A stretch of 17,383 nucleotides of DNA, from the NCBI GenBank assembly GCA_030613505.1, contig JAUWLW010000053.1:1-17383 (forward strand), in the 5' to 3' direction. Positions 1 through 17,383 of the stretch are shown here, piece by piece. The translations under genes were made by a program, and so were the position numbers. The notes under the pieces are model-generated. The model worked only from the letters and a program-made list of their open reading frames with translations. It had not been told where the DNA came from and ran no database searches. This DNA is from Candidatus Zixiibacteriota bacterium (lineage in GTDB: Bacteria; RBG-13-66-14; B26-G2; WVWN01). Numbering within the stretch: position 1 is the stretch's first letter; every line of letters starts with the position of its first letter.

Positions 1-126
1 GCTCTTTATTCGCTCTATATGACCGATCAAGTCGGACTCGAAGAGTGCCTGCGCGTAAGCGCCGATCAGGTAGGGCTGCGCCGGATGATCGGCGAGCCTG
101 AGACGGCTCCCGCCGCCGTCCGCTGA
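1..126 (+). CDS. 3' end of an unidentified gene (partial)
   Basis: The first frame is open from the window edge to a TGA at 124-126 and would give a 41-residue C-terminus ending in ETAPAAVR. I recognise no family or motif. The TPR reading frame at 152-457 starts just behind it in another frame, so this could be the end of an upstream gene or part of the TPR gene separated by a frameshift. The open frame is short and GC-rich sequence stays open by chance, so confidence is low. Confidence 0.3.
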   Translation, partial: ALYSLYMTDQVGLEECLRVSADQVGLRRMIGEPETAPAAVR

Positions 127-151
127 CGCCTGGACCGCGACGTACCGGGGC

Positions 152-457
152 GTGCAAGACGGCGACGAGAGCCGCGACCGGGCGCGCGGGGGCGACTATG
201 CGCGGGCCGGTTTTTGCCTGGACTTGGCGGAGCGTCTCGGCGCCCGGGCCGAGAAGGTGCAGAACCGCCTCGGCGCCTACGCCGAAGGACGAGGCGACGT
301 CGACGCGGCGGCCGCCCACTACCGACGCGCGTTGGCGTTGGACCCCACGTTTCGAGGGGCGCGGGAGGGTCTGATAAAGCTCTATTACCGTTCGGGCGAG
401 AACGACAGCGCCGCGCGGGAGCTCCGGACGCTGACGGCCTTTTATCCCGGCGATTGA
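152..457 (+). CDS. short tetratricopeptide-repeat (TPR) protein or C-terminal TPR fragment
   Basis: The frame encodes about 101 residues from a GTG at 152; it is already open from about position 101, so the true start is uncertain. Residues about 40-70 match a TPR consensus: LGAYAEGRGDVDAAAAHY followed by RRALALDPTFRGA. A second, weaker repeat follows (LIKLYYRSGENDSAARELRTL). TPR units are helix-turn-helix scaffolds for protein-protein contacts. There is no signal peptide and no convincing Shine-Dalgarno sequence before the GTG, and most TPR proteins are longer. It may therefore be the C-terminal part of a larger TPR protein broken by a frameshift near 100-126. A hairpin with a T-run follows at 495-522. 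The TPR assignment is fairly safe; the gene boundaries are not. Confidence 0.55.
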   Translation: MQDGDESRDRARGGDYARAGFCLDLAERLGARAEKVQNRLGAYAEGRGDVDAAAAHYRRALALDPTFRGAREGLIKLYYRSGENDSAARELRTLTAFYPGD

Positions 458-494
458 GGCGGCGCAGGGATTATTAATCGTAACAGGCCGAGCC

Positions 495-522
495 AACGAC
501 GCGAGTCGCGACGTTGATTTTT
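495..522 (+). terminator. probable intrinsic terminator after the TPR gene
   Basis: An imperfect GC-rich inverted repeat at 495-515 (AACG-A-CGCGA against TCGCG-A-CGTT, with one A-A mismatch) is followed by a T-rich run ending near 522. It lies 38 bases after the TGA at 457 and separates the TPR gene from the promoter at 613. Confidence 0.45.
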
Positions 523-612
523 AGCGGTTTTGCTAATTATACCGGCCGTTTTACGGATTTTAAGGCTGAGGAGTTGCCGTATATTTTTAAGTAAAAAATG
601 TGCAAAAAGGAC

Positions 613-641
613 TTGATATTTTACTGTCGTTTGTGTATGCT
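613..641 (+). promoter_or_regulatory. sigma70-like promoter for the secreted protein at 696
   Basis: TTGATA at 613-618 and TATGCT at 636-641 are separated by exactly 17 bases, in an AT-rich stretch between the terminator near 500 and the gene at 696. Initiation would fall near 648, leaving a leader of about 48 bases with an AAGGAGG ribosome site at 684-690. This also argues against a start codon at 600, which would lie upstream of transcription initiation. Confidence 0.6.
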
Positions 642-695
642 GTTAGTCGAAGGAAGTTGCCTTTCAAACGGCGTTCTACTAACAAGGAGGCTGAT

Positions 696-1424
696 GTGAA
701 GAAGGTACTTTTAATAATAGTAGCCTTGCTCATAGCGACGAGCGCGTTGGCGGCGCCGCCGTCGAAGATCCTCGTCAAGTACGACGTGTACGGCGGTTAC
801 GGGAACGCCGTCATCAACGCGCTCAAGGCCAAGTGGTCCGCCGCGACCATTACGTCTTACGTGGGGAATACCTGGCCGGTGTTCATTTCCCAGCTCACCA
901 CGGGGACCTGGGACGTAGTTATCGTCGAGGGACACAACTACAGAGGTACGAGCACGACCCAGTATCAGGCCCTCGCGACCTGGTATAACAAGAAAGTCGG
1001 GCCGCTCTTCTACACCGACTGGTATATGTACGGTAGCCTCAACAACGTGCTTGAAACGGCTATGGGCGCCGGCAACGGGACCCAATTGCGTATGCCGCCT
1101 CGGCCCCATTACGCGTGGGTCACGACGCACCCGATTTGTACCGGCATCACGAGCTGGACCTACGGCAACCCGGGCTACGGCACGGGCGGCAACGCCATGC
1201 CCTGGACTACGGCTACTCCCGTAACCGGTTGGACCAGCAGCTCGTCCACCGGCCAGGGTGGCATCATGGTCGCCCCGGATAAACACAGCATCATCAGCGG
1301 GTACATGCCTTCCTTGAACTCGTCGCAGGGCGAAAAAATCTGGGCGAACATCCTGGAATTCATGTGGGCCAGCTCCAGCGTCAGTCCCCAATCGCTCGGT
1401 AAAGTCAAAGCCCTGTACAAATAG
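696..1424 (+). CDS. secreted protein, possible GATase1/ThuA-like fold, with short C-terminal motif SLGKVKALYK
   Basis: The chosen start is the GTG at 696, five bases after a strong AAGGAGG (684-690); an ATG at 694 is out of frame. The 242-residue product opens with a typical signal peptide (MKKVLLIIVALLIATSALA, predicted cleavage after ALA). The mature part starts with a beta-strand (KILVKYDVYG) and has a WDVVIVEGHNY segment about 75 residues on. This alternating strand-helix pattern resembles class I glutamine amidotransferase-like or ThuA-like folds, but I see no catalytic Cys-His-Glu triad, so an enzymatic role is not supported. A Gly, Thr and Trp-rich segment follows. The protein ends SVSPQSLGKVKALYK, matching the motif found at three other places in the window. 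It is monocistronic, between its own promoter and the terminator at 1444. Function unknown; extracytoplasmic location likely. Confidence 0.8.
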   Translation: MKKVLLIIVALLIATSALAAPPSKILVKYDVYGGYGNAVINALKAKWSAATITSYVGNTWPVFISQLTTGTWDVVIVEGHNYRGTSTTQYQALATWYNKKVGPLFYTDWYMYGSLNNVLETAMGAGNGTQLRMPPRPHYAWVTTHPICTGITSWTYGNPGYGTGGNAMPWTTATPVTGWTSSSSTGQGGIMVAPDKHSIISGYMPSLNSSQGEKIWANILEFMWASSSVSPQSLGKVKALYK

Positions 1425-3814: not shown

Positions 3815-5416
3815 TTACCGCACTACCACCAGCCGCCTGGCGGCGGCGTCGACGCCCGCCTGCAGACGGTAGATGTATACGCCGGGCGCGAGGCCCGCGA
3901 GGCCGACGTCGACGTCGTGCGCGCCTTCGGTCAGCTGCCGCTGAAGCAACGTGCGGACCTTGCGGCCCAAGATGTCGTAAAGTTCTATCGTCGCGGCGCC
4001 GGCCTCGGCCAGCGTGAAGGCTATCCTGGCGTCGCCGCGGCACGGGTTGGGCCGCGCCTGCTCGAGCGCGAAGGCGTACGGCTTGCGCGGGGCCGGCTCG
4101 CGCGGCGGCCCCGGCTCGATGCCGGTATGGCCTACGAGGTCGAAGAGCCACACGTGCGCCGCCTCGTTGCCCTTATCCTGCAGGCTCACGCAGATCTCGC
4201 TCACGCCGTCGCCCGTCACGTCGCCCACGCGCTCGACGTCGTAGATGCGCTCCGAGAAATTTTGGGTCCATAGCTCGAGGCCCTTGTTGGAGTAGCACTT
4301 GGCGACGCCGCTGCCGCTCCCCAGCGATCCGCCCACCGCTTCCCACAGCTTGTCGCCGTCGACGTCCTGGACAACGTCCACCGACCACACGTCCGCGGCC
4401 ACCGGCTTGGCCCACAGCGTAGCGCCGTCCTTGCCGCTGACGCAGAGGAGGTTGGAGCTCCACGAGCCCACGACGACGTCGTCGTAGCCGTCGTTGTTAA
4501 CGTCCGGCAGGCGCTCGAGGTCCATCACGATAGCGCCGACGGTGTTGGTCCAGAGGAGGGCGCCGTCCTTGCCGCTCAGGCCTACCACCGTGCGGGCCCA
4601 CCCGCCGGCGGCCACGTCGTCGTAGCCGTCGTTGTTTACGTCGCCTAGGTTGACGACGTCGGAGAGGCTGTTGCCGGTGTCGTAGACCCAGATTTGAGAA
4701 CCGTTGGTGCCGTTCAGGCCGTAAACTTTATTATCCAAGCCGTTGCCGCCCGACCCCGCCACCGCCTCCGGAATCCCGTCGCCCGTAACGTCGCCGATGG
4801 CGGTCACGCACTGCGCGCCGTCCCGCGGCGGCCTGAAGGTCCAGATGATGTTCACCGCGTCCGAGGTGCTGCCGCCGTCGAAGCAGAAGACGGTCCCGCT
4901 GCGGACGGTCGCGTTGCCGCCCGCGGCGGCCAGCAGGTCCTTCTTGCCGTTCTTATTCACGTCGCCGGTTCCCGCTACGGAATAAACCCAACCCGCGTTC
5001 GGGCCGCTGTACGTCGAGTACGAAAAAATAGTCTTTCCGTCTTTACCCGATTTTAAATAGAACGACCGCCCCTCGCTCACGCCGCCGGGCGTGCCCATAA
5101 TGACCTCGCGGACGCCGTCGCCGTTGAGGTCTTCCACTGTGTCCAGGCCGTGGGTTCCCCACAGGCCCAGGCAGTCGTTGGCGGCCCAGAGTTTGCCGCC
5201 GTTCTTGCCCGAGAGCGCGAAGAGCTCGTCGCCGGCGTCGGAGTAGTACTTGCCGCACACGACGTCCGGGACGCCGTCGTTGTTCACGTCGCCCAGGTCC
5301 GCGGAGGCGTAGACGCCGTTGCAGTCGGTATACGACCACAAGAGCTTCGCGCCGGCGAGCGCGGTCGTCGCGGCTAGAATCGTCGCGAGAAATGTTAACG
5401 CGTAACGCCGCTTCAT
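3815..5416 (-). CDS. secreted FG-GAP/VCBS beta-propeller protein with type IX (Por) C-terminal sorting domain
   Basis: The 533-residue product starts with a signal peptide (MKRRYALTFLATILAATTALA). Eight repeats follow, each with a D-x-N-x-(D/N)-G calcium-binding loop: DVNNDGVPDVV, DLNGDGVREVI, DVNKNGKKDLL, DVTGDGIPEAV, DVNNDGYDDVA, DVNNDGYDDVV, DVDGDKLWEAV and DVTGDGVSEIC. PQQ-propeller-like turns (LSGKDGALLW) lie between them. This predicts a calcium-dependent beta-propeller, a fold often used for adhesion or ligand binding outside the cell. The last 80 or so residues form a classic sorting domain: NPCRGDARIAF, then ATIELYDILGRKVRTL, then LAPGVYIYRLQAG, ending LVVVR. In known systems such domains pass through the type IX apparatus and are usually removed. 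ATG 5416 has AAGGTGG upstream. It sits between two paralogous beta-rich genes (gaps of 42 and 93 bases). Confidence 0.92.
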   Translation of the reverse strand: MKRRYALTFLATILAATTALAGAKLLWSYTDCNGVYASADLGDVNNDGVPDVVCGKYYSDAGDELFALSGKNGGKLWAANDCLGLWGTHGLDTVEDLNGDGVREVIMGTPGGVSEGRSFYLKSGKDGKTIFSYSTYSGPNAGWVYSVAGTGDVNKNGKKDLLAAAGGNATVRSGTVFCFDGGSTSDAVNIIWTFRPPRDGAQCVTAIGDVTGDGIPEAVAGSGGNGLDNKVYGLNGTNGSQIWVYDTGNSLSDVVNLGDVNNDGYDDVAAGGWARTVVGLSGKDGALLWTNTVGAIVMDLERLPDVNNDGYDDVVVGSWSSNLLCVSGKDGATLWAKPVAADVWSVDVVQDVDGDKLWEAVGGSLGSGSGVAKCYSNKGLELWTQNFSERIYDVERVGDVTGDGVSEICVSLQDKGNEAAHVWLFDLVGHTGIEPGPPREPAPRKPYAFALEQARPNPCRGDARIAFTLAEAGAATIELYDILGRKVRTLLQRQLTEGAHDVDVGLAGLAPGVYIYRLQAGVDAAARRLVVVR

Positions 5417-6590: not shown

Positions 6591-6619
6591 TTTATTTTTT
6601 ACGATAGGTTTATTATAAT
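6591..6619 (+). promoter_or_regulatory. promoter for the AT-rich gene at 6661, with a near-overlapping minus-strand -10
   Basis: TATAAT at 6614-6619 is a perfect -10, with a weak TTTATT at 6591-6596 after a 17-base spacer. It lies in the 107-base gap between divergent genes. Because ATTATAAT is self-complementary, the minus strand also reads TATAAT at 6617-6612, with a weak TTAAAT upstream (6640-6635) that could serve the cupin gene. Both polymerases could not bind at once. Confidence 0.5.
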
Positions 6620-6660
6620 GCAAAAAGGCTATCTATTTAAGGCAATTTAAGGGGAACGTA

Positions 6661-8181
6661 ATGGGCTTTGAAAAAGAAAAGGAAGAGGGCGAAATAATCG
6701 ACGCCGAGATTTGGTACGTTTATTCGTACGATCTAGGTTTGGAGGTACAGGAGTGGAAAACTGATATAGAAGGCTTTTTTAATATAAGTTCCATTTTAGC
6801 AATAATAAGACCCGAGGATGATTTTTTATATTTTAAAGGCGAAGAGAGTTTAGTTTGTACGAAGGTAAATTGGGAAAAGAAGTATTTCCCTAAGGGTTTT
6901 AGTTTCTCTAAAAGCTTAGAATTCGTTTCCGAAAAACACAGGGACTACGTATATAATTTATTAGCTTTTAGGCTTTCCGAACTATCTACTCCGGCTTTTA
7001 GCCGGGATTTCGCAGGGACCCCTGATTATATAAAAGGTATTTTATTACCTTTTTATGCGGAATTCGATTTAGGGGGCGAATCTACAAAAATTTACTTTGA
7101 ACCTTTCTTTAGGATAAACTACGATGGCGTTTTATTTTTGGAATATAGGTTAGTAGTAAAAAACCTCGAAACGGCGGAGTTTATTAATAGGACTAATTTA
7201 TTTACTTATCCGATACACCGTTTACATTGCCCATTAGAAATCGCTATCGCAAATCAGCACCTTGCTTCTATTTCTCACGGGGTAGTTTACAATTCGAAAA
7301 AATACCAAAAGGTAATGGAGGCTATAGAAACCGCGGAAATTTACTCCGAAGAAGTGGATTGTTTACCTAATTACGTCCTTCATACTTTCGAATTCGAAGG
7401 AAGCGGGCCGTTTTTTTTGGGGAATTTAAATGAGATATTTAAATACCTGTTTTTAAGAATTTTACGAGGCAAAGAAATAAAAAAAACGAAAGAATTGATA
7501 ACCCCGCTCAGATCCGGTTTTTGGCAGCAAACGATTTTCATCGTAGTTAGGGAGTTCGAAGACCAAGTGGATAATAATGAAACTAACTATAAAGAACACA
7601 AAGAACTAATAACGAAATTATTTAACAGGTCTTGTAAATACGCGCCTGGGTTAGCGCCTAGCTTAGAGGCTAACGTTCGCGTTTTCGATGACTATTTACT
7701 TTTCATAAATCCCGGTTTATTTCTTAAAGTATATAATAGTAATTACATTTCCAGTATTAAGGTTCCTGAGGGTGGTTCTCGCGATTTGGAATTCGCTCAT
7801 TTAGACGGGAGTACGTTGGGTATTATAGAATACTTCCTATCTTTGTATATGTTGAGTCGGATTACTTTAGATGTTTTGCTTTTTAGTAAAAAGCCTAAAC
7901 TGAAAACGATATTTGATTTGAAGGAAAGGGTACATTTTCAAAAGGGTTTCGTAGAACTGACTAGTATCGGCGCGGGGGAGGTTGCTGATTTGTTGGAAAA
8001 AGCAAAGGAAGTATTTAATTTATACGATTGTGAGAATACGGCAACAATTATTTCCGACGACCTTATGAGAAGGGAAATTCATAAATTAACAAAAGCGCAA
8101 AACATTATTCTGTTAATACTTACGTTCGTTCTCGTATTAATAGGCATTACCTCTTTTTTTGTTTTATTATTTAATTCATAA
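6661..8181 (+). CDS. unknown 506-residue protein with a C-terminal membrane anchor, AT-rich
   Basis: The ATG at 6661 follows AAGGGG (6649-6654). The N-terminus is highly charged and acidic (MGFEKEKEEGEIID) without a signal peptide, so the large domain of about 480 residues is probably cytoplasmic. A single strongly hydrophobic segment at about 481-504 (NIILLILTFVLVLIGITSFF) would anchor the C-terminus in the inner membrane. I see no P-loop, HExxH, nuclease or helicase motif and do not recognise the family. Composition differs sharply from its surroundings: Leu is mostly TTA and 16 of 60 bases are G or C in 6781-6840, against 44 of 60 in 10681-10740 of clpC. This suggests horizontal origin. 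The stop at 8181 lies six bases before the ATG of a decayed clpC start. The second AT-rich membrane gene follows at 8385 and may be its partner. Confidence 0.85.
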   Translation: MGFEKEKEEGEIIDAEIWYVYSYDLGLEVQEWKTDIEGFFNISSILAIIRPEDDFLYFKGEESLVCTKVNWEKKYFPKGFSFSKSLEFVSEKHRDYVYNLLAFRLSELSTPAFSRDFAGTPDYIKGILLPFYAEFDLGGESTKIYFEPFFRINYDGVLFLEYRLVVKNLETAEFINRTNLFTYPIHRLHCPLEIAIANQHLASISHGVVYNSKKYQKVMEAIETAEIYSEEVDCLPNYVLHTFEFEGSGPFFLGNLNEIFKYLFLRILRGKEIKKTKELITPLRSGFWQQTIFIVVREFEDQVDNNETNYKEHKELITKLFNRSCKYAPGLAPSLEANVRVFDDYLLFINPGLFLKVYNSNYISSIKVPEGGSRDLEFAHLDGSTLGIIEYFLSLYMLSRITLDVLLFSKKPKLKTIFDLKERVHFQKGFVELTSIGAGEVADLLEKAKEVFNLYDCENTATIISDDLMRREIHKLTKAQNIILLILTFVLVLIGITSFFVLLFNS

Positions 8182-8187
8182 ATGGCT

Positions 8188-8271
8188 ATGTAAGAATATT
8201 TGTACGATAATCAGCAGGAGGCCGTCCGCTCGCCGCAGGAGTCGGCCAAGGCGCTGGGCGCCGCGCAGATT
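8188..8271 (+). pseudogene. decayed fragment of the clpC 5' end
   Basis: Read from ATG 8188, codons 1-28 align without gaps to codons 1-28 of clpC (from 9169); I count 65 of 84 bases identical. The longest shared run is 18 bases, CGCAGGAGTCGGCCAAGG, at 8234-8251. Residues EAVRS, QESAK and GAAQI are kept. Codon 2 is TAA instead of GAA, and similarity ends near 8271 before a stop at 8281, so it cannot make a Clp protein. It is a GC-rich patch inside AT-rich DNA. Homology begins at the start codon, with unrelated sequence upstream of each copy. Confidence 0.82.
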
Positions 8272-8310
8272 AGGGGTTACTAACTCATTTTAAGCATAGT
8301 CGGCGATTAA

Positions 8311-8334
8311 ATTAAACCAAACGCGTTTTTTAAT
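8311..8334. repeat. inverted repeat in the leader of the gene at 8385
   Basis: ATTAAA-CC-AAACG (8311-8323) is followed directly by its complement CGTTT-TTTAAT (8324-8334), with only a CC bulge. Its core AAACGCGTTT is a perfect palindrome. It lies 51 bases before the start codon of the next gene. It could be an operator, or a weak terminator for the gene ending at 8181, because the right arm contains six T residues. Confidence 0.4.
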
Positions 8335-8384
8335 CAACGGCTATCACCAGTGAGCGGTTTTTAAATAAAAGCGGAGGTAACGAG

Positions 8385-9158
8385 ATGGACCCGAAATTGT
8401 TTATCTCTACTTATTTCGCCGGCGGTATATTTTTTTTAACGGTTATAATTACTTTTTCCGCAGTAAGTAATGGATTAACCGAATTTGAGAATTTGTATAC
8501 AAAAATCGGTTTGGGCGGAGCCGCAGGTTTAATAGCTTTAGCGCCCGTTCTTGGTTTTCTAATTGGAACATTGCATATAGTCTTACGCCGTTTTGGTTGC
8601 TTTTTGCTCGGTCCCCGCCACGACCGTTCCGGAAGGACCCTTAATTGCTGGAATTTCCACGATGACACGATAAGGATAGAGCTAAAGGAATATATTTTGA
8701 ATAGTATAGGTCGTAATGTTGATACAAACGCACTCGAGAAAATGTCGCCGGATGCTTTTTTAAGCTTTTTTACTTTTAAGGATTTCCCGAAAGAATTATC
8801 CGATTGGCGGAGGAGGTTGAACGGCGGCCAATTGGCCGGTATTAATAACTCACTCGCTGTTTGGTTGGGTTTTTCTTTAAGTTTTCTTGTGATTTATATA
8901 AAAGGCGGTTGTATCGCCGTCAATATAGAAGGATTTTACATTGTGGGTTTTTTCGCGCTCGTTTTTATGTCCCTCTTTCTTATCCAAGCGGTCCGTTGTT
9001 ATTACGAGGAAAGGCATTTGTACGAATTGGTATTTTATTTCTTATGGTCCGAAGAACCGGAAGTAAAGACCTGTAAGGAAACAAAGTCGTGGAAAAAAAC
9101 GGCTGAAGAGATTTCTAATAGAATCCGCAGAATCTTAAACGTAAAAAAGGATGAGTAA
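8385..9158 (+). CDS. unknown four-helix membrane protein, AT-rich
   Basis: The ATG at 8385 has a strong GGAGGT site at 8373-8378. The 257-residue product has four hydrophobic segments: about residues 6-28, 43-68, 155-175 and 183-204. A loop of about 85 residues between segments 2 and 3 contains CWNFHDDTIRIELKEYIL and a DWRRRLNGGQ stretch, and a charged tail (EEISNRIRRILNVKKDE) ends the protein. Both termini are probably on the same side, likely cytoplasmic. No enzymatic motif is visible and I do not recognise the family. Composition is AT-rich like the gene at 6661. It lies between a decayed clpC start (8188-8271) and the intact clpC, whose ATG is only 10 bases past its stop, so clpC is probably cotranscribed and may depend on this gene's promoter and translation. 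Confidence 0.82.
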   Translation: MDPKLFISTYFAGGIFFLTVIITFSAVSNGLTEFENLYTKIGLGGAAGLIALAPVLGFLIGTLHIVLRRFGCFLLGPRHDRSGRTLNCWNFHDDTIRIELKEYILNSIGRNVDTNALEKMSPDAFLSFFTFKDFPKELSDWRRRLNGGQLAGINNSLAVWLGFSLSFLVIYIKGGCIAVNIEGFYIVGFFALVFMSLFLIQAVRCYYEERHLYELVFYFLWSEEPEVKTCKETKSWKKTAEEISNRIRRILNVKKDE

Positions 9159-11685: not shown

Positions 11686-11742
11686 GTACGTACGGCGGCG
11701 GCGCCGACCTCGCTCGGCAAGGTCAAGACGCTGTTCCGGTAA
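11686..11742 (+). pseudogene. orphan C-terminal motif in frame behind the clpC stop codon
   Basis: After the clpC TAA (11683-11685) the same frame continues as VRTAAAPTSLGKVKTLFR and ends at a TAA (11740-11742). The last ten residues match the C-termini encoded at 1424 (SLGKVKALYK), 14337 (SVGRVKALFR) and 17215 (SVGGVKALFH). The stretch has no start codon of its own with a ribosome site. It looks like the 3' remnant of a lost exported-protein gene, or a former clpC tail cut off by a new stop. Stop-codon readthrough is possible but unsupported. Confidence 0.6.
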
Positions 11743-14284: not shown

Positions 14285-14350
14285 ACCGAAAGCCGCCCCT
14301 CGAGGGGCGGCTTTTATAAAAGGAGGTAGTTAGCGTTTAGCGGAACAGCG
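14285..14350. repeat. direct repeat, copy A: terminator plus 3' end of an Omp28-like gene
   Basis: This segment is nearly identical to 17159-17228, differing mainly in the loop of the hairpin and a few bases. The 24 bases 14317-14340 are identical to 17195-17218. It holds a perfect 22-base palindrome, a 3' UTR with an anti-Shine-Dalgarno-like stretch, the stop codon and the last codons of the gene. The two copies flank the 14755-17131 cassette in direct orientation. Confidence 0.8.
14289..14315. terminator. terminator at the 3' end of the Omp28-like fragment
   Basis: AGCCGCCCCTC (14291-14301) is followed by its exact complement GAGGGGCGGCT (14302-14312), a perfect 22-base palindrome. It has TTTT on the plus strand and TTTCGG on the minus strand. 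It lies 24 bases beyond the minus-strand stop at 14337 and probably works in both directions. Confidence 0.75.
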
Positions 14351-14630
14351 CTTTGACGCGCCCTACCGAGGCGGGTTCGACGGCGTAGGCCGACTCGAGT
14401 ATGCCGGCCCGGGCGTTTTTGACCTCTTTTCCGGTGGGGTCCTGGACGAAGACGGATAGGCCGAGGGCGGCCTCTTTCCAGCCGCTCTGAATAGTAAACT
14501 CGTGGGTGAATTCCTCGTTCTGACCCTGGCCCGTAATGGTAAGGTTCTTGGTGGTGAAGCCGCGCTCGACGAAGCGGTAGTGGCCACCGACCTTGTCCTC
14601 CCACAGGACGATGTGGCAGACGTGGCCCAA
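14337..14630 (-). pseudogene. 5'-truncated Omp28-like protein fragment with C-terminal motif SVGRVKALFR
   Basis: About 97 residues remain (start TTG 14630; the frame is open only to a stop at 14651-14649). The content resembles the C-terminal part of Omp28-related or thioredoxin-fold outer-membrane proteins: VLWEDKVGGHYRFVERGF, then a strand ending FTHEFTI, a Trp, LGLSVFVQD and GKEVKNA. There is no signal peptide, Shine-Dalgarno or plausible start. Upstream DNA turns abruptly AT-rich at about 14,631. It matches the C-terminus of the gene running off the window at 17383 (28 of 53 residues identical by my count), including the end EPASVGRVKALFR. It is most likely the 3' remnant of a gene whose front was lost when the AT-rich cassette arrived, though a short expressed product cannot be excluded. 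Confidence 0.65.
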
Positions 14631-14707
14631 ACGTAGGTTTAGGGCTACCTAATGTTAAATAGTCATTTAAAGTATAAAAAATATAGTGTAACTACCGCAT
14701 TTTGTGC

Positions 14708-14736
14708 TTGACTAATAACCTGCTTTATGTTACGTT
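14708..14736 (+). promoter_or_regulatory. weak promoter candidate for the metalloprotease cassette
   Basis: TTGACT (14708-14713) is a good -35, but the hexamer 17 bases downstream, TACGTT (14731-14736), is a poor -10. The whole 14640-14754 gap is AT-rich and gene-free. The gene at 14755 has no Shine-Dalgarno, so a short-leader or leaderless mRNA is possible. Confidence 0.3.
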
Positions 14737-14754
14737 TTTTACGGTGATTAAAAT

Positions 14755-15117
14755 ATGGTTCGTTTATTGACACTATTGTTAATATTTATAGCTCAAACCA
14801 CGATAAGTTGTACTTCGGGGTTTGAAGAAGTATATGCCGCCCCGTGGATCCATTCGGTTACCGAAAATAAAGGTGAGATTGAAATAATTTGGTCTTCTTT
14901 TACGGGAGACGATGAATTGTTACGGTTCAAATTAGACGAAAGAAAAAGTGTTTGGGAACTGGAATACAAGAAAAAAACTAAATACCTTAATTACGTCGAC
15001 AATTATTATTTAAAACCGGGCTCTATTTACGGATATATCGTTATCGACAGGGTAGGTAATAGGTCTCGGCTTAAGGCTATAAGGTACCGAGGTTTAACTG
15101 CTAAATACGGAGGTTGA
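14755..15117 (+). CDS. small secreted or lipoprotein Fn3-like protein
   Basis: The 120-residue product starts with a hydrophobic signal segment (MVRLLTLLLIFIAQTTIS) followed directly by Cys19. TISC is a poor lipobox, so it may be a lipoprotein or an ordinary secreted protein. The remaining 100 residues look like one fibronectin type III-like beta-sandwich: a W in IEIIWSSF, then YLNYVDNYYLKPGSIYGYIV, and a typical final strand DRVGNRS. No Shine-Dalgarno is visible before the ATG. The end overlaps the GGAGGT site of the metalloprotease gene four bases downstream, so the two are almost certainly cotranscribed and coupled. Composition is AT-rich. A role as accessory, anchor or binding partner of the protease is inference. 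Confidence 0.8.
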   Translation: MVRLLTLLLIFIAQTTISCTSGFEEVYAAPWIHSVTENKGEIEIIWSSFTGDDELLRFKLDERKSVWELEYKKKTKYLNYVDNYYLKPGSIYGYIVIDRVGNRSRLKAIRYRGLTAKYGG

Positions 15118-15121
15118 TGAC

Positions 15122-17131
15122 ATGGTAAATATTAAAACATTTTTTAGAATTTTAACCGGGTTTTTCGTATGCTTAAGTTTTACCTCGGCTTTTGCTATAG
15201 AGTTAGAAGTCCCGCCTGATATTTCTAACGACGACTTAAGGGAAATGGATGAGGCGACGTTTAAGTATTTATATAACTACGCATACGAAAATCTAGTAGT
15301 ACCGGAGATAAGAAAAGGGGTTTACCACGATTATGATTTGGTCGTAAATTTTACCAAAGACGGTATTCCGATTTCCGAGTTTTACGAAGGAACTAGGGAC
15401 GACGACGTACCTAACGGAGAACTTACGTTCGGAAGATGGGACGGCGACCACCCTTGGGAAGATTGGCAATTCGAAGCTTTATGGGAACACTTATATTGGG
15501 CTATGCAAGTTCCACAATGGATAGGCGCTTATCAGTTAGGTAAGGAAGTATACGGGAACCCTTTCTATCATGCTTTAGTGTATATTAAGCGAGATCCTAA
15601 TTTACCTTATGGAGGAATGTATACGCCTGGCGGCCCGTTTGGTACTATTACGCTAAATGTAGAAGACGGCGGCGAAATAACCGACAATATCAAAGGGGCG
15701 CTCACCCATGAGATGTTACACGCATTTTTGGACGGTACCCCGTTATGGGCCCAATTTTCAGAAGGTATGGCAACCGCCGGCGCGATAATTATTCAAACTA
15801 TGTTATATAATGCTGGTGTCGAAACTGGTTATGACAGGGTGAACCATAACAACGAAGTTTTGTATACTTATCATGAATTTTACAACGTTTCTGATTTCGC
15901 TTGCCCGGGTAATAATTTCTGGTTGGGTTGGGATTGGTTGGTACATATTAGGTACAATGTTTCTTCTTTCGTTTGGTGGAAGATGTATTGCGAGGACCCG
16001 GATTTTTTCGTAAGGTTTAATAGTTTATTGTATTCAAATCCGGGCGTAGGTCACGGCCAGTTAATGGATAACGCCCGCGACGCTTATTCCCTACCAACCC
16101 TCGAGGGGTTTTGGGATATCCAAAAATGGTTAGAAAATCAACCGATTATAAAAATGCCCGCTAGCACCGACGGCACTTTTATGGCTGCTATACCTTATGA
16201 CGATTGGCCACGCGTTTGGTTATATAAACGCTCCGACGGGGGCGAGTTAGAAGAACCGGTAGTTGGAGCTAACGTAGAAGCCGACCTTTTCGACGCGGAT
16301 AATAACTGGGTAATCCATAGCACAGATATTACGCGGCCCGACGGGTACGCCCTATTCCCGAGCCCGTACGGAGGTCCGGCTATGAAACGTTATAGGATTT
16401 ACGCCGTTACTAAATACGGCGGTGGTTTAGTAAGGAATGTTAAGGGCCATTCCGACGAGAAACACTACGGCGTTCCGGGTCGCGGAGGTCCGCATAACCC
16501 GAACGACCGCAACATGTACGGCATCCTCGTCTATACAACCTCCCAATCGCCTCCATACGAGCTAGACGTCAGCCTCTACGACGCGCGGACGGGGGTTCAA
16601 ATTTGGGGTATGGTGCAACCCGTCCACGATTTTAGCCAGTTTTACGTTTCTGGCCTCGACCCCGAACCGCTTCCTGATTTTTTACAATGGCGTTTGACGT
16701 ACCGCACTTTCGACCCGCCGTACGAGTATACTATTTGCCGGAACGTCGATAAAGCGACGTACTTCATTATATTTAACGAGTACCCCGGCGACGATTTGGA
16801 CTCCGGCCCCGTACCCGCGGCAATCACGCTTAACGCGCCCGTTGACGAAATTGAAAAACTCTCAACCCGGGCTTCGATTTCGGCTTCCGGATACGGCGTT
16901 GCGATAAATTATTACGTTACCGTAAAACTGGCCGCGTATGGCACGGCCACTTTCGAAGCGTTCGACTTAGCGGGTAGGAAAGTGTTCCGAACGGACCTTG
17001 GCCGACCGAACCTGGGGAAAAATACTTACTACCTCGACGTCGCCGATTGTAACCTACCCCAAGGCGTTTATATTTACCGTATTAAGGTAGGCCCCGAAGC
17101 TTCGGTAAATAAATTCGTGGTAACTAGGTAA
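15122..17131 (+). CDS. secreted zinc metalloprotease (gluzincin type) with type IX C-terminal sorting domain
   Basis: The ATG at 15122 follows GGAGGT at 15109-15114. The 669-residue product starts with a signal peptide (ending SFTSAFA). A catalytic domain of about 350 residues carries HEMLH at 196-200 (two zinc-binding His and the general-base Glu197) and Glu214 in FSEGMATA as probable third ligand, the layout of peptidase MA-like gluzincins. A beta-sandwich of carboxypeptidase-regulatory type follows at about 375-440 (VVGANVEADLFDADN). The end is a Por sorting domain: ATFEAFDLAGRKVFRTDL, then LPQGVYIYRIKVG, ending NKFVVTR. It should be exported through Sec and then the type IX system. Base composition is AT-rich over the catalytic part and more GC-rich after about 16,450, suggesting a mosaic gene. 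Substrate unknown. Confidence 0.9.
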   Translation: MVNIKTFFRILTGFFVCLSFTSAFAIELEVPPDISNDDLREMDEATFKYLYNYAYENLVVPEIRKGVYHDYDLVVNFTKDGIPISEFYEGTRDDDVPNGELTFGRWDGDHPWEDWQFEALWEHLYWAMQVPQWIGAYQLGKEVYGNPFYHALVYIKRDPNLPYGGMYTPGGPFGTITLNVEDGGEITDNIKGALTHEMLHAFLDGTPLWAQFSEGMATAGAIIIQTMLYNAGVETGYDRVNHNNEVLYTYHEFYNVSDFACPGNNFWLGWDWLVHIRYNVSSFVWWKMYCEDPDFFVRFNSLLYSNPGVGHGQLMDNARDAYSLPTLEGFWDIQKWLENQPIIKMPASTDGTFMAAIPYDDWPRVWLYKRSDGGELEEPVVGANVEADLFDADNNWVIHSTDITRPDGYALFPSPYGGPAMKRYRIYAVTKYGGGLVRNVKGHSDEKHYGVPGRGGPHNPNDRNMYGILVYTTSQSPPYELDVSLYDARTGVQIWGMVQPVHDFSQFYVSGLDPEPLPDFLQWRLTYRTFDPPYEYTICRNVDKATYFIIFNEYPGDDLDSGPVPAAITLNAPVDEIEKLSTRASISASGYGVAINYYVTVKLAAYGTATFEAFDLAGRKVFRTDLGRPNLGKNTYYLDVADCNLPQGVYIYRIKVGPEASVNKFVVTR

Positions 17132-17158
17132 TACGCAAAGTAGTTTTATCAGTTTTAA

Positions 17159-17228
17159 TACCGAAAGCCGCCCCTAGTGTAGGGGCGGCTTCTGTAAAAG
17201 GAGGTAGTTAGCGTTTAGTGGAACAGCG
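17159..17228. repeat. direct repeat, copy B: terminator plus 3' end of the second Omp28-like gene
   Basis: This is the partner of 14285-14350. It contains the same hairpin family, an identical 24-base 3' UTR and stop region (17195-17218), and the last codons of the gene. It starts 28 bases after the metalloprotease stop and marks the right edge of the AT-rich cassette. Confidence 0.8.
17164..17192. terminator. terminator between the metalloprotease and the minus-strand Omp28-like gene
   Basis: AGCCGCCCCTA (17166-17176) pairs with TAGGGGCGGCT (17180-17190), an 11-base-pair stem with a three-base loop. T-runs are short on both sides (CTTCT and CTTTCGG). Genes converge here, so it probably serves both. 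The loop differs from copy A while the stem is kept, a compensatory pattern that supports real hairpin function. Confidence 0.75.
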
Positions 17229-17383
17229 CCTTGACGCCGCCCACCGACGCCGGCTCCACGGCCACGCCCTCGACGAGCTTCGTCGCCCGGCCGTTGAGGA
17301 TCTGTTTGCCGGCGAAGTTCTGGACCCAGGCCGAGACGCCGAGGTTGGCCTTATTCCAACTTCCGTCCAGCGTGAAGGTCCGC
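17215..17383 (-). CDS. 3' end of an Omp28-like secreted protein with C-terminal motif SVGGVKALFH (partial)
   Basis: The gene runs off the right edge; 55 C-terminal codons are visible, ending at the TAA 17217-17215. The visible part (FTLDGSWNKANLGVSAWVQN, then AGKQILNG) matches the last domain of Omp28-related or thioredoxin-fold outer-membrane proteins and is 28 of 53 identical to the fragment at 14337-14630. It ends EPASVGGVKALFH, another copy of the short C-terminal motif. Because the sequence continues outside the window, this may be the intact member of the duplicated pair. Location is probably extracytoplasmic, although the signal peptide is not in view. Confidence 0.75.
   Translation of the reverse strand, partial: RTFTLDGSWNKANLGVSAWVQNFAGKQILNGRATKLVEGVAVEPASVGGVKALFH

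Follow-up and report, generated by a model that had tools for sequence, protein, structure and literature searches.

A short tail of the overall form [ST]-[WLVF]-G-x-[IV]-K-x-[LMI]-[FY]-[RK]-stop, existing in several dialects, is very likely to be a genuine C-terminal tag of exported proteins. It meets the generic expectations of a sorting tag, namely a fixed C-terminal position, many unrelated passengers and signal peptides on those passengers, and the lineages that bear it belong to several distantly related phyla. The tag came to light in a stretch of 17,383 nucleotides from a Candidatus Zixiibacteriota bacterium (the whole stretch is called the window here), in which the following features are relevant.

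696..1424, + strand: tagged secreted protein with a GTG start and the signal peptide VKKVLLIIVALLIATSALA; an open reading frame with the tag at its end
1392..1424, + strand: tag SLGKVKALYK plus stop, from the sequence of the window
11710..11742, + strand: orphan tag SLGKVKTLFR plus stop, in frame 3' of the clpC stop, without a start codon
14337..14648, − strand: tagged gene, 5'-truncated, Omp28/thioredoxin-like by inference; ends SVGRVKALFR and is homologous to tagged open reading frames
14337..14369, − strand: tag SVGRVKALFR plus stop, from the sequence of the window
17215..17383, − strand: second tagged gene, of the same family as the 14337..14648 gene, 3' end only (cut by the contig end)
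17215..17247, − strand: tag SVGGVKALFH plus stop, from the sequence of the window
3815..5416, − strand: for comparison, untagged secreted protein with a classical type IX sorting domain (TIGR04183, 33.6 bits, cut-off 23)
15122..17131, + strand: for comparison, untagged secreted protein with a type IX-like sorting domain (TIGR04183, 20.3 bits, below the cut-off of 23)

A preliminary description of the window had claimed that four frames end in one ten-residue pattern, with a Pro two to three residues before the Ser, that the attached proteins differ in fold, and that two other secreted proteins use the Por sorting domain instead. All four tails are present and the Pro lies two residues before the Ser in each, but the tail ending at 11742 has no protein of its own. 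The Por domains were also confirmed, the second scoring just under the cut-off. The difference in fold held only in part. The 14337 and 17215 proteins are homologous (54% identity over 52 residues) and make up one family; since the 11742 tail lacks a protein, the window contains only two independent tagged families. The 14337 copy is missing its N-terminal part, the truncation point being the edge of an AT-rich block, while the 17215 copy runs past the contig end. The 14337..14648 gene is homologous to tagged, thioredoxin-like reading frames in loci L058 and L110; a Pfam scan of a 97-residue fragment of this passenger gave zero matches. The 11742 tail consists of 18 codons in frame after the clpC TAA (EDEVFD-stop-VRTAAAPTSLGKVKTLFR-stop). 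No tag was found at the clpC loci of relatives that were looked at, and the orphan is likely, judged from sequence alone, to be a gene remnant. Full-length homologs of the 696..1424 protein that were read, from the same genus and the same phylum, all end in a tag; an AF2 model of this protein was too poor for use (pLDDT 52). On the window alone the case is thinner than the preliminary description supposed; genome-wide it is far stronger.

In the genome of origin (2.86 Mb, 93% complete), a degenerate DNA pattern for [LVFW]-G-x-[VI]-K-x-[LIMV]-[FY]-x-stop gave 142 matches at a stop codon, against 1 for the reversed pattern used as control. Detailed analyses were confined to 919 kb of this genome, the window included. 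Within the 919 kb, the string S[LVFIW]Gx[VI]K[ATGS][LIM][FY] occurs 121 times in six frames, and in 119 of these cases it lies exactly one residue before a stop. Across 127 tails, numbered from the C-terminus, G(-8) and K(-5) are invariant, S(-10) is present in 98% and P(-12) in 95%, with strong preferences for V/I(-6), L(-3), F/Y(-2) and R/K(-7) and a last residue that is usually charged rather than apolar. The search pattern itself partly forces the invariance of Gly and Lys, but it imposes neither the fixed position nor the Ser, the Pro or the preference at -7. Close variants missed by the pattern, such as SLGRGKALFR and SVGRIRALFR, end a few more genes. The codons of the tag vary freely, Ser being drawn from both TCN and AGY, Gly from all four codons and Leu from six, and selection therefore acts on the peptide and not on the DNA.

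The passengers are enriched in signal peptides. In the own-genome sample, a signal-peptide-like start was called for 76 of 90 genes with the tag and for 233 of 562 without it (p=1e-14). The call rests on a crude hydropathy rule and not on SignalP; when inspected by eye, many of the other tagged genes show a signal peptide or a start that was wrongly set. By single linkage the tagged proteins fall into about 14 unrelated families, one large group of which includes NHL-type propellers; most of those scanned belong to no recognisable family. The preliminary description had named two outcomes that would refute it, the motif being equally common on cytoplasmic proteins or confined to one homologous family, and neither was met. 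Tagged proteins are short, with a median length of 257 aa against 604 aa for proteins with a type IX CTD, although only 10 of the latter were compared.

Anchoring through a lipid was considered and is not supported, since nearly all tagged proteins are without a convincing lipobox. A lipobox regex matched 5 tagged proteins against 79 of SPI type, and 39 untagged proteins against 125 (p=4e-4), so that lipoboxes are depleted among the tagged. By reading, the five matches are mostly Ala-rich SPI-type sequences, with AAAACGSWVY (locus L063) ambiguous. Three untagged homologs of tagged proteins are lipoprotein-like by reading (L067 12613-13545, L087 6239-7150 and L066 392-1450). Together with the depletion, this pattern is consistent with passage of tagged proteins through the periplasm in soluble form.

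The tag changes its form across genomes. The first pattern has 92-137 matches in three members of the genus, 11-21 in members of the order and class, and 1-6 in another family of the same phylum (f5). Homologs of the 696..1424 protein in f5 end in a W form of the tag (TTWGAIKAGF, TSWGAIKAEF and similar), and a WGxIKA pattern finds 27-52 tails per f5 genome, with 0-1 in controls. Alignment of these homologs shows a conserved passenger, an extra Big_5 domain gained in f5 between passenger and tail, and the tail kept. Outside the phylum, among 386 genomes scanned, 15 genomes from several families each hold 10-52 copies of the form [ST]-W-G-x-[IV]-K-x-[LMI]-[FY]-[RK], and a manual count found a detectable signal peptide in 29 of 38 tagged reading frames sampled from other genomes. 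An earlier impression that SxGxIKxLYR-type endings occur in other candidate phyla was thus borne out, such endings being found there. A further dialect, SSWG[EQ]IKAEF[KS], was seen in one genome (G161, loci L234-L236).

One tagged protein is present in single copy and is widespread. It has about 134 residues, a signal peptide and an FN3-like domain, for which generic FN3 matches were the only ones obtained apart from weak sequence similarity to part of a Parabacteroides glucanase. In its AF2 model the domain has pLDDT mostly >90 and the tail is a short helix of pLDDT 62-70. A scan of named genomes returned 372 relatives, the best 80 of which come from Ignavibacteria, Calditrichota (including a MAG named Caldithrix abyssi), KSB1, LCP-89, Neomarinimicrobiota and others. 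All 80 of these loci, when fetched, end [RQHKE][TS]WGSIKA[ML]F[RKQ], although identity to the reference is no more than 27-44%, and the tail is the best conserved part of the proteins. In several KSB1-type loci, which also show helix-hairpin-helix genes, the FN3 gene adjoins genes for PorD (DUF4835) or the PorV/PorQ family. In Ignavibacteria it is found with SpoIID-like and Maf genes and not with type IX genes. No obvious sortase-like partner was seen in 91 neighbourhoods of the FN3 gene searched for a dedicated partner enzyme. At L145 and about 32 other loci, mostly of Ignavibacteria, a SpoIID-like gene comes after the FN3 gene, often together with Maf (names by reading), in a conserved order.

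The closest known signals are those of type IX secretion. SprA and PorV recognise type IX CTDs, which fold as beta-sandwiches; type A CTDs have a single near-invariant Lys close to the C-terminus (PMC10994853), while type B CTDs use dedicated carriers (PMC12618676). Like these domains (TIGR04183/PF18962; type B), the tag is C-terminal, is borne by Sec-exported proteins of the same genomes and has a near-invariant Lys near the C-terminus. Unlike them, it comprises 10-16 residues rather than a beta-sandwich of about 70, and its passengers are shorter. A classical type IX CTD is rejected as the identity of the tail, since the family models do not match: no hit to TIGR04183/PF18962 was obtained in 10 tagged proteins with NCBIfam (E<=10) or in 10 with Pfam (E<=0.1), and no NCBIfam or Pfam model covered the tail in the tagged proteins scanned. 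The proposal in the preliminary description of a second C-terminal tag distinct from the Por domain is supported; the specific step it suggested, be it export, anchoring or processing, is not shown. The shortest type IX signals found described, at 43-55 residues, are those of Prevotella intermedia (PMC11969387), which are likewise reduced C-terminal signals on exported proteins. They retain motifs B, D and E and three predicted strands, whereas the tag has about a quarter of their length and no such motifs were recognised in it.

The PEP-CTERM, MYXO-CTERM, GlyGly-CTERM and LPXTG signals resemble the tag as short C-terminal sorting tags on dozens of unrelated exported proteins per genome. Such signals combine a motif, a transmembrane helix and a basic tail; the tag, in contrast, has neither a transmembrane helix nor a known cleavage motif. 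A tripartite CTERM tag is rejected, a TM-like 17-mer being found within the last 70 residues of only 1 of 113 tagged proteins. Exosortase (PF09721) is rejected as the processing enzyme in the own genome, where it was not found; nor was it found in relatives within the phylum, except for one sub-cut-off match (G003). It is present in 8 of the other tag genomes. The motif strings were not found in the literature searched (preprints and most subscription papers were outside its scope), and the tag is apparently undescribed.

The link to type IX secretion is inferential and new in this analysis, being absent from the preliminary description. The tag is nested within SprA-bearing lineages: SprA is encoded in 138 of the 386 genomes (36%) and in all 29 genomes with >=3 tags (p=1e-14, uncorrected for kinship). 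Kinship inflates this per-genome value; counted by families, the association is 14/14 with p about 6e-7. In a set of 60 genomes, the majority picked because they carry tags or SprA, 59 have classical type IX CTDs, as has every tag-rich genome tested, so that the tag genomes meet the type IX criterion of encoding both SprA and CTD proteins. C25 peptidases (PorU class) are present in 33 of 33 genomes tested. The own genome has 48 classical CTD matches against 142 tags, and encodes a C25 peptidase of 1489 residues (PorU-like) with, by reading, a PorV-like gene directly next to it. Many SprA-positive genomes have no tag.

In the reading that is favoured here, tagged proteins would be made with a cleavable Sec signal peptide and would cross the inner membrane as soluble, non-lipidated proteins. 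The last 10-16 residues would then be recognised, the invariant Gly and Lys lying at a constant spacing from the free C-terminus. The most likely reader would be the outer-membrane part of the type IX system, SprA with a carrier of the PorV/PorQ family. The tag would be a minimal alternative to the CTD of about 70 residues, by which proteins, mostly small ones, are brought to the cell surface or kept there. This reading is favoured because every tag genome in the set of 29 has SprA, because CTDs and C25 peptidases co-occur with the tag, because PorD, PorV and PorQ genes are neighbours, and because of the invariant Lys shared with type A CTDs. It is weakened because the FN3 gene of Ignavibacteria does not lie with type IX genes, because many SprA-positive genomes are untagged and because the shortest described signals have 43-55 residues; the co-occurrence with SprA may also reflect shared ancestry. 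Type IX recognition, surface fate and any cleavage are all a matter of inference, with no receptor and no experiment to support them, and recognition by the type IX apparatus is as likely to be wrong as right. A bolder reading, for which the odds are slightly unfavourable, is that the tag defines an undescribed class of secretion signal of 10-16 residues with a dedicated type IX carrier, parallel to the classical CTD, in FCB-type and candidate phyla. In some genomes its clients would then outnumber those of the CTD (142 against 48 here), and the FN3 protein (TWGSIKAMFR) would be a conserved client or component; these extensions, too, are rather less probable than not.

The alternative that survives best is a tag independent of type IX secretion, which remains possible. 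Here the tail would bind another, unidentified receptor of the periplasm or outer membrane, or pair as an edge strand with a partner sheet, and would serve to retain proteins at the envelope or to build surface layers. The strict residues and the fixed spacing to the C-terminus suggest a protein receptor, the FN3 gene stands away from type IX genes in Ignavibacteria, and the G-x-[VI]-K-A-x-[FY] periodicity gives greater amphipathicity to a strand than to a helix. If the tail added a final strand to the sheet of a partner, it might resemble the last CTD strand, but this is a guess. Against independence stand the presence of SprA in every tag-rich genome, of CTD proteins in every one tested, and of PorD/PorQ neighbours in KSB1-type loci.

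It is unlikely that the tail is an amphipathic membrane anchor, an in-plane helix that sticks to the membrane without a receptor. The tail does resemble MinD-type tails, the net charge is +2 or +3 in 114 of 127 tails, and the AF2 helix for the FN3 tail would agree, although its confidence is low. The signals for conformation differ, however, the moment calculation favouring a strand. Neither an invariant Ser, Gly and Lys nor a set spacing from the stop would be required of a lipid-binding helix; the helical moment does not stand out from that of shuffled sequences, 43% of which reach its value, and the f5 form WGAIKAEF is almost without one. Less plausible still, and very unlikely, is a mark for periplasmic proteolysis or for a chaperone. 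Periplasmic proteases can recognise C-termini, and the tag offers a free C-terminus in fixed register, but it is hard to see why about 140 genes, many of them tandemly arrayed, would be maintained just for destruction of their products, and the last residue is usually charged rather than apolar. It is all but excluded that the tails arose by chance, by descent within a single family or from a DNA repeat at the ends of genes: two of the four window copies are homologous and some tails are orphans, but chance is rejected by the 142 matches against 1 and the 119 of 121 occurrences at a stop, a repeat is rejected by the free codon choice with its TCN and AGY serines, and there are about 14 families and conservation across phyla.

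If the tag predicts destination, many hypothetical proteins of under-studied phyla could be assigned a location. The type IX system has been studied almost only in Bacteroidota, and if it reads the tag, it may use a far smaller address label outside that phylum. A peptide tag read by another carrier would extend the logic by which SprA, PorV and dedicated carriers read type IX signals, although this is not shown. Since lineages with cultured members (relatives of Caldithrix, Melioribacter and Ignavibacterium) appear to carry the single-copy form, the tail should be testable soon.

Some further observations concern the surroundings of tagged genes. The window has two AT-rich blocks, 6607-9130 and 14650-17140, of 35-53% GC in a contig of about 65% GC; the second adjoins the truncated gene at 14337-14648 and bears the secreted protein with the type IX-like domain. 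More orphan tags without a complete gene are found at L046:3226-3300, L054:7270-7314, L065:10150-10242, L070:5504-5539 and L071:9921-10007, and the one at L065 (MKLFVAVAVESLGKVKALFK) looks like a signal peptide start joined to a tag via an internal deletion. Another contig of the own genome (C58, locus L062) repeats sequence from window positions 1-800: the start of the tagged protein recurs there at 92% identity, along with a near-identical TPR end, possibly through recent duplication or as strain variants within the assembly.

A tagged, secreted, beta-helix-like family has one in-frame TGA in the context C-[PV]-G-TGA-G, at L050:8426-9181 (−), L050:6575-7315 (−) and L066:3241-3990 (−), with homologs in genomes G001-G004. 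Exactly one in-frame TGA is present in 12 of 12 homologs (five genomes, two families), and the CxG-TGA site is the same wherever it was read (10 loci, several overlapping). From sequence alone, the family is likely to consist of selenoproteins that are exported and bear a CxxU motif. A scan of three loci returned no tRNA-Sec. SelB is encoded in all seven genomes tested and, in G004, lies about 3 kb from two of the TGA genes.
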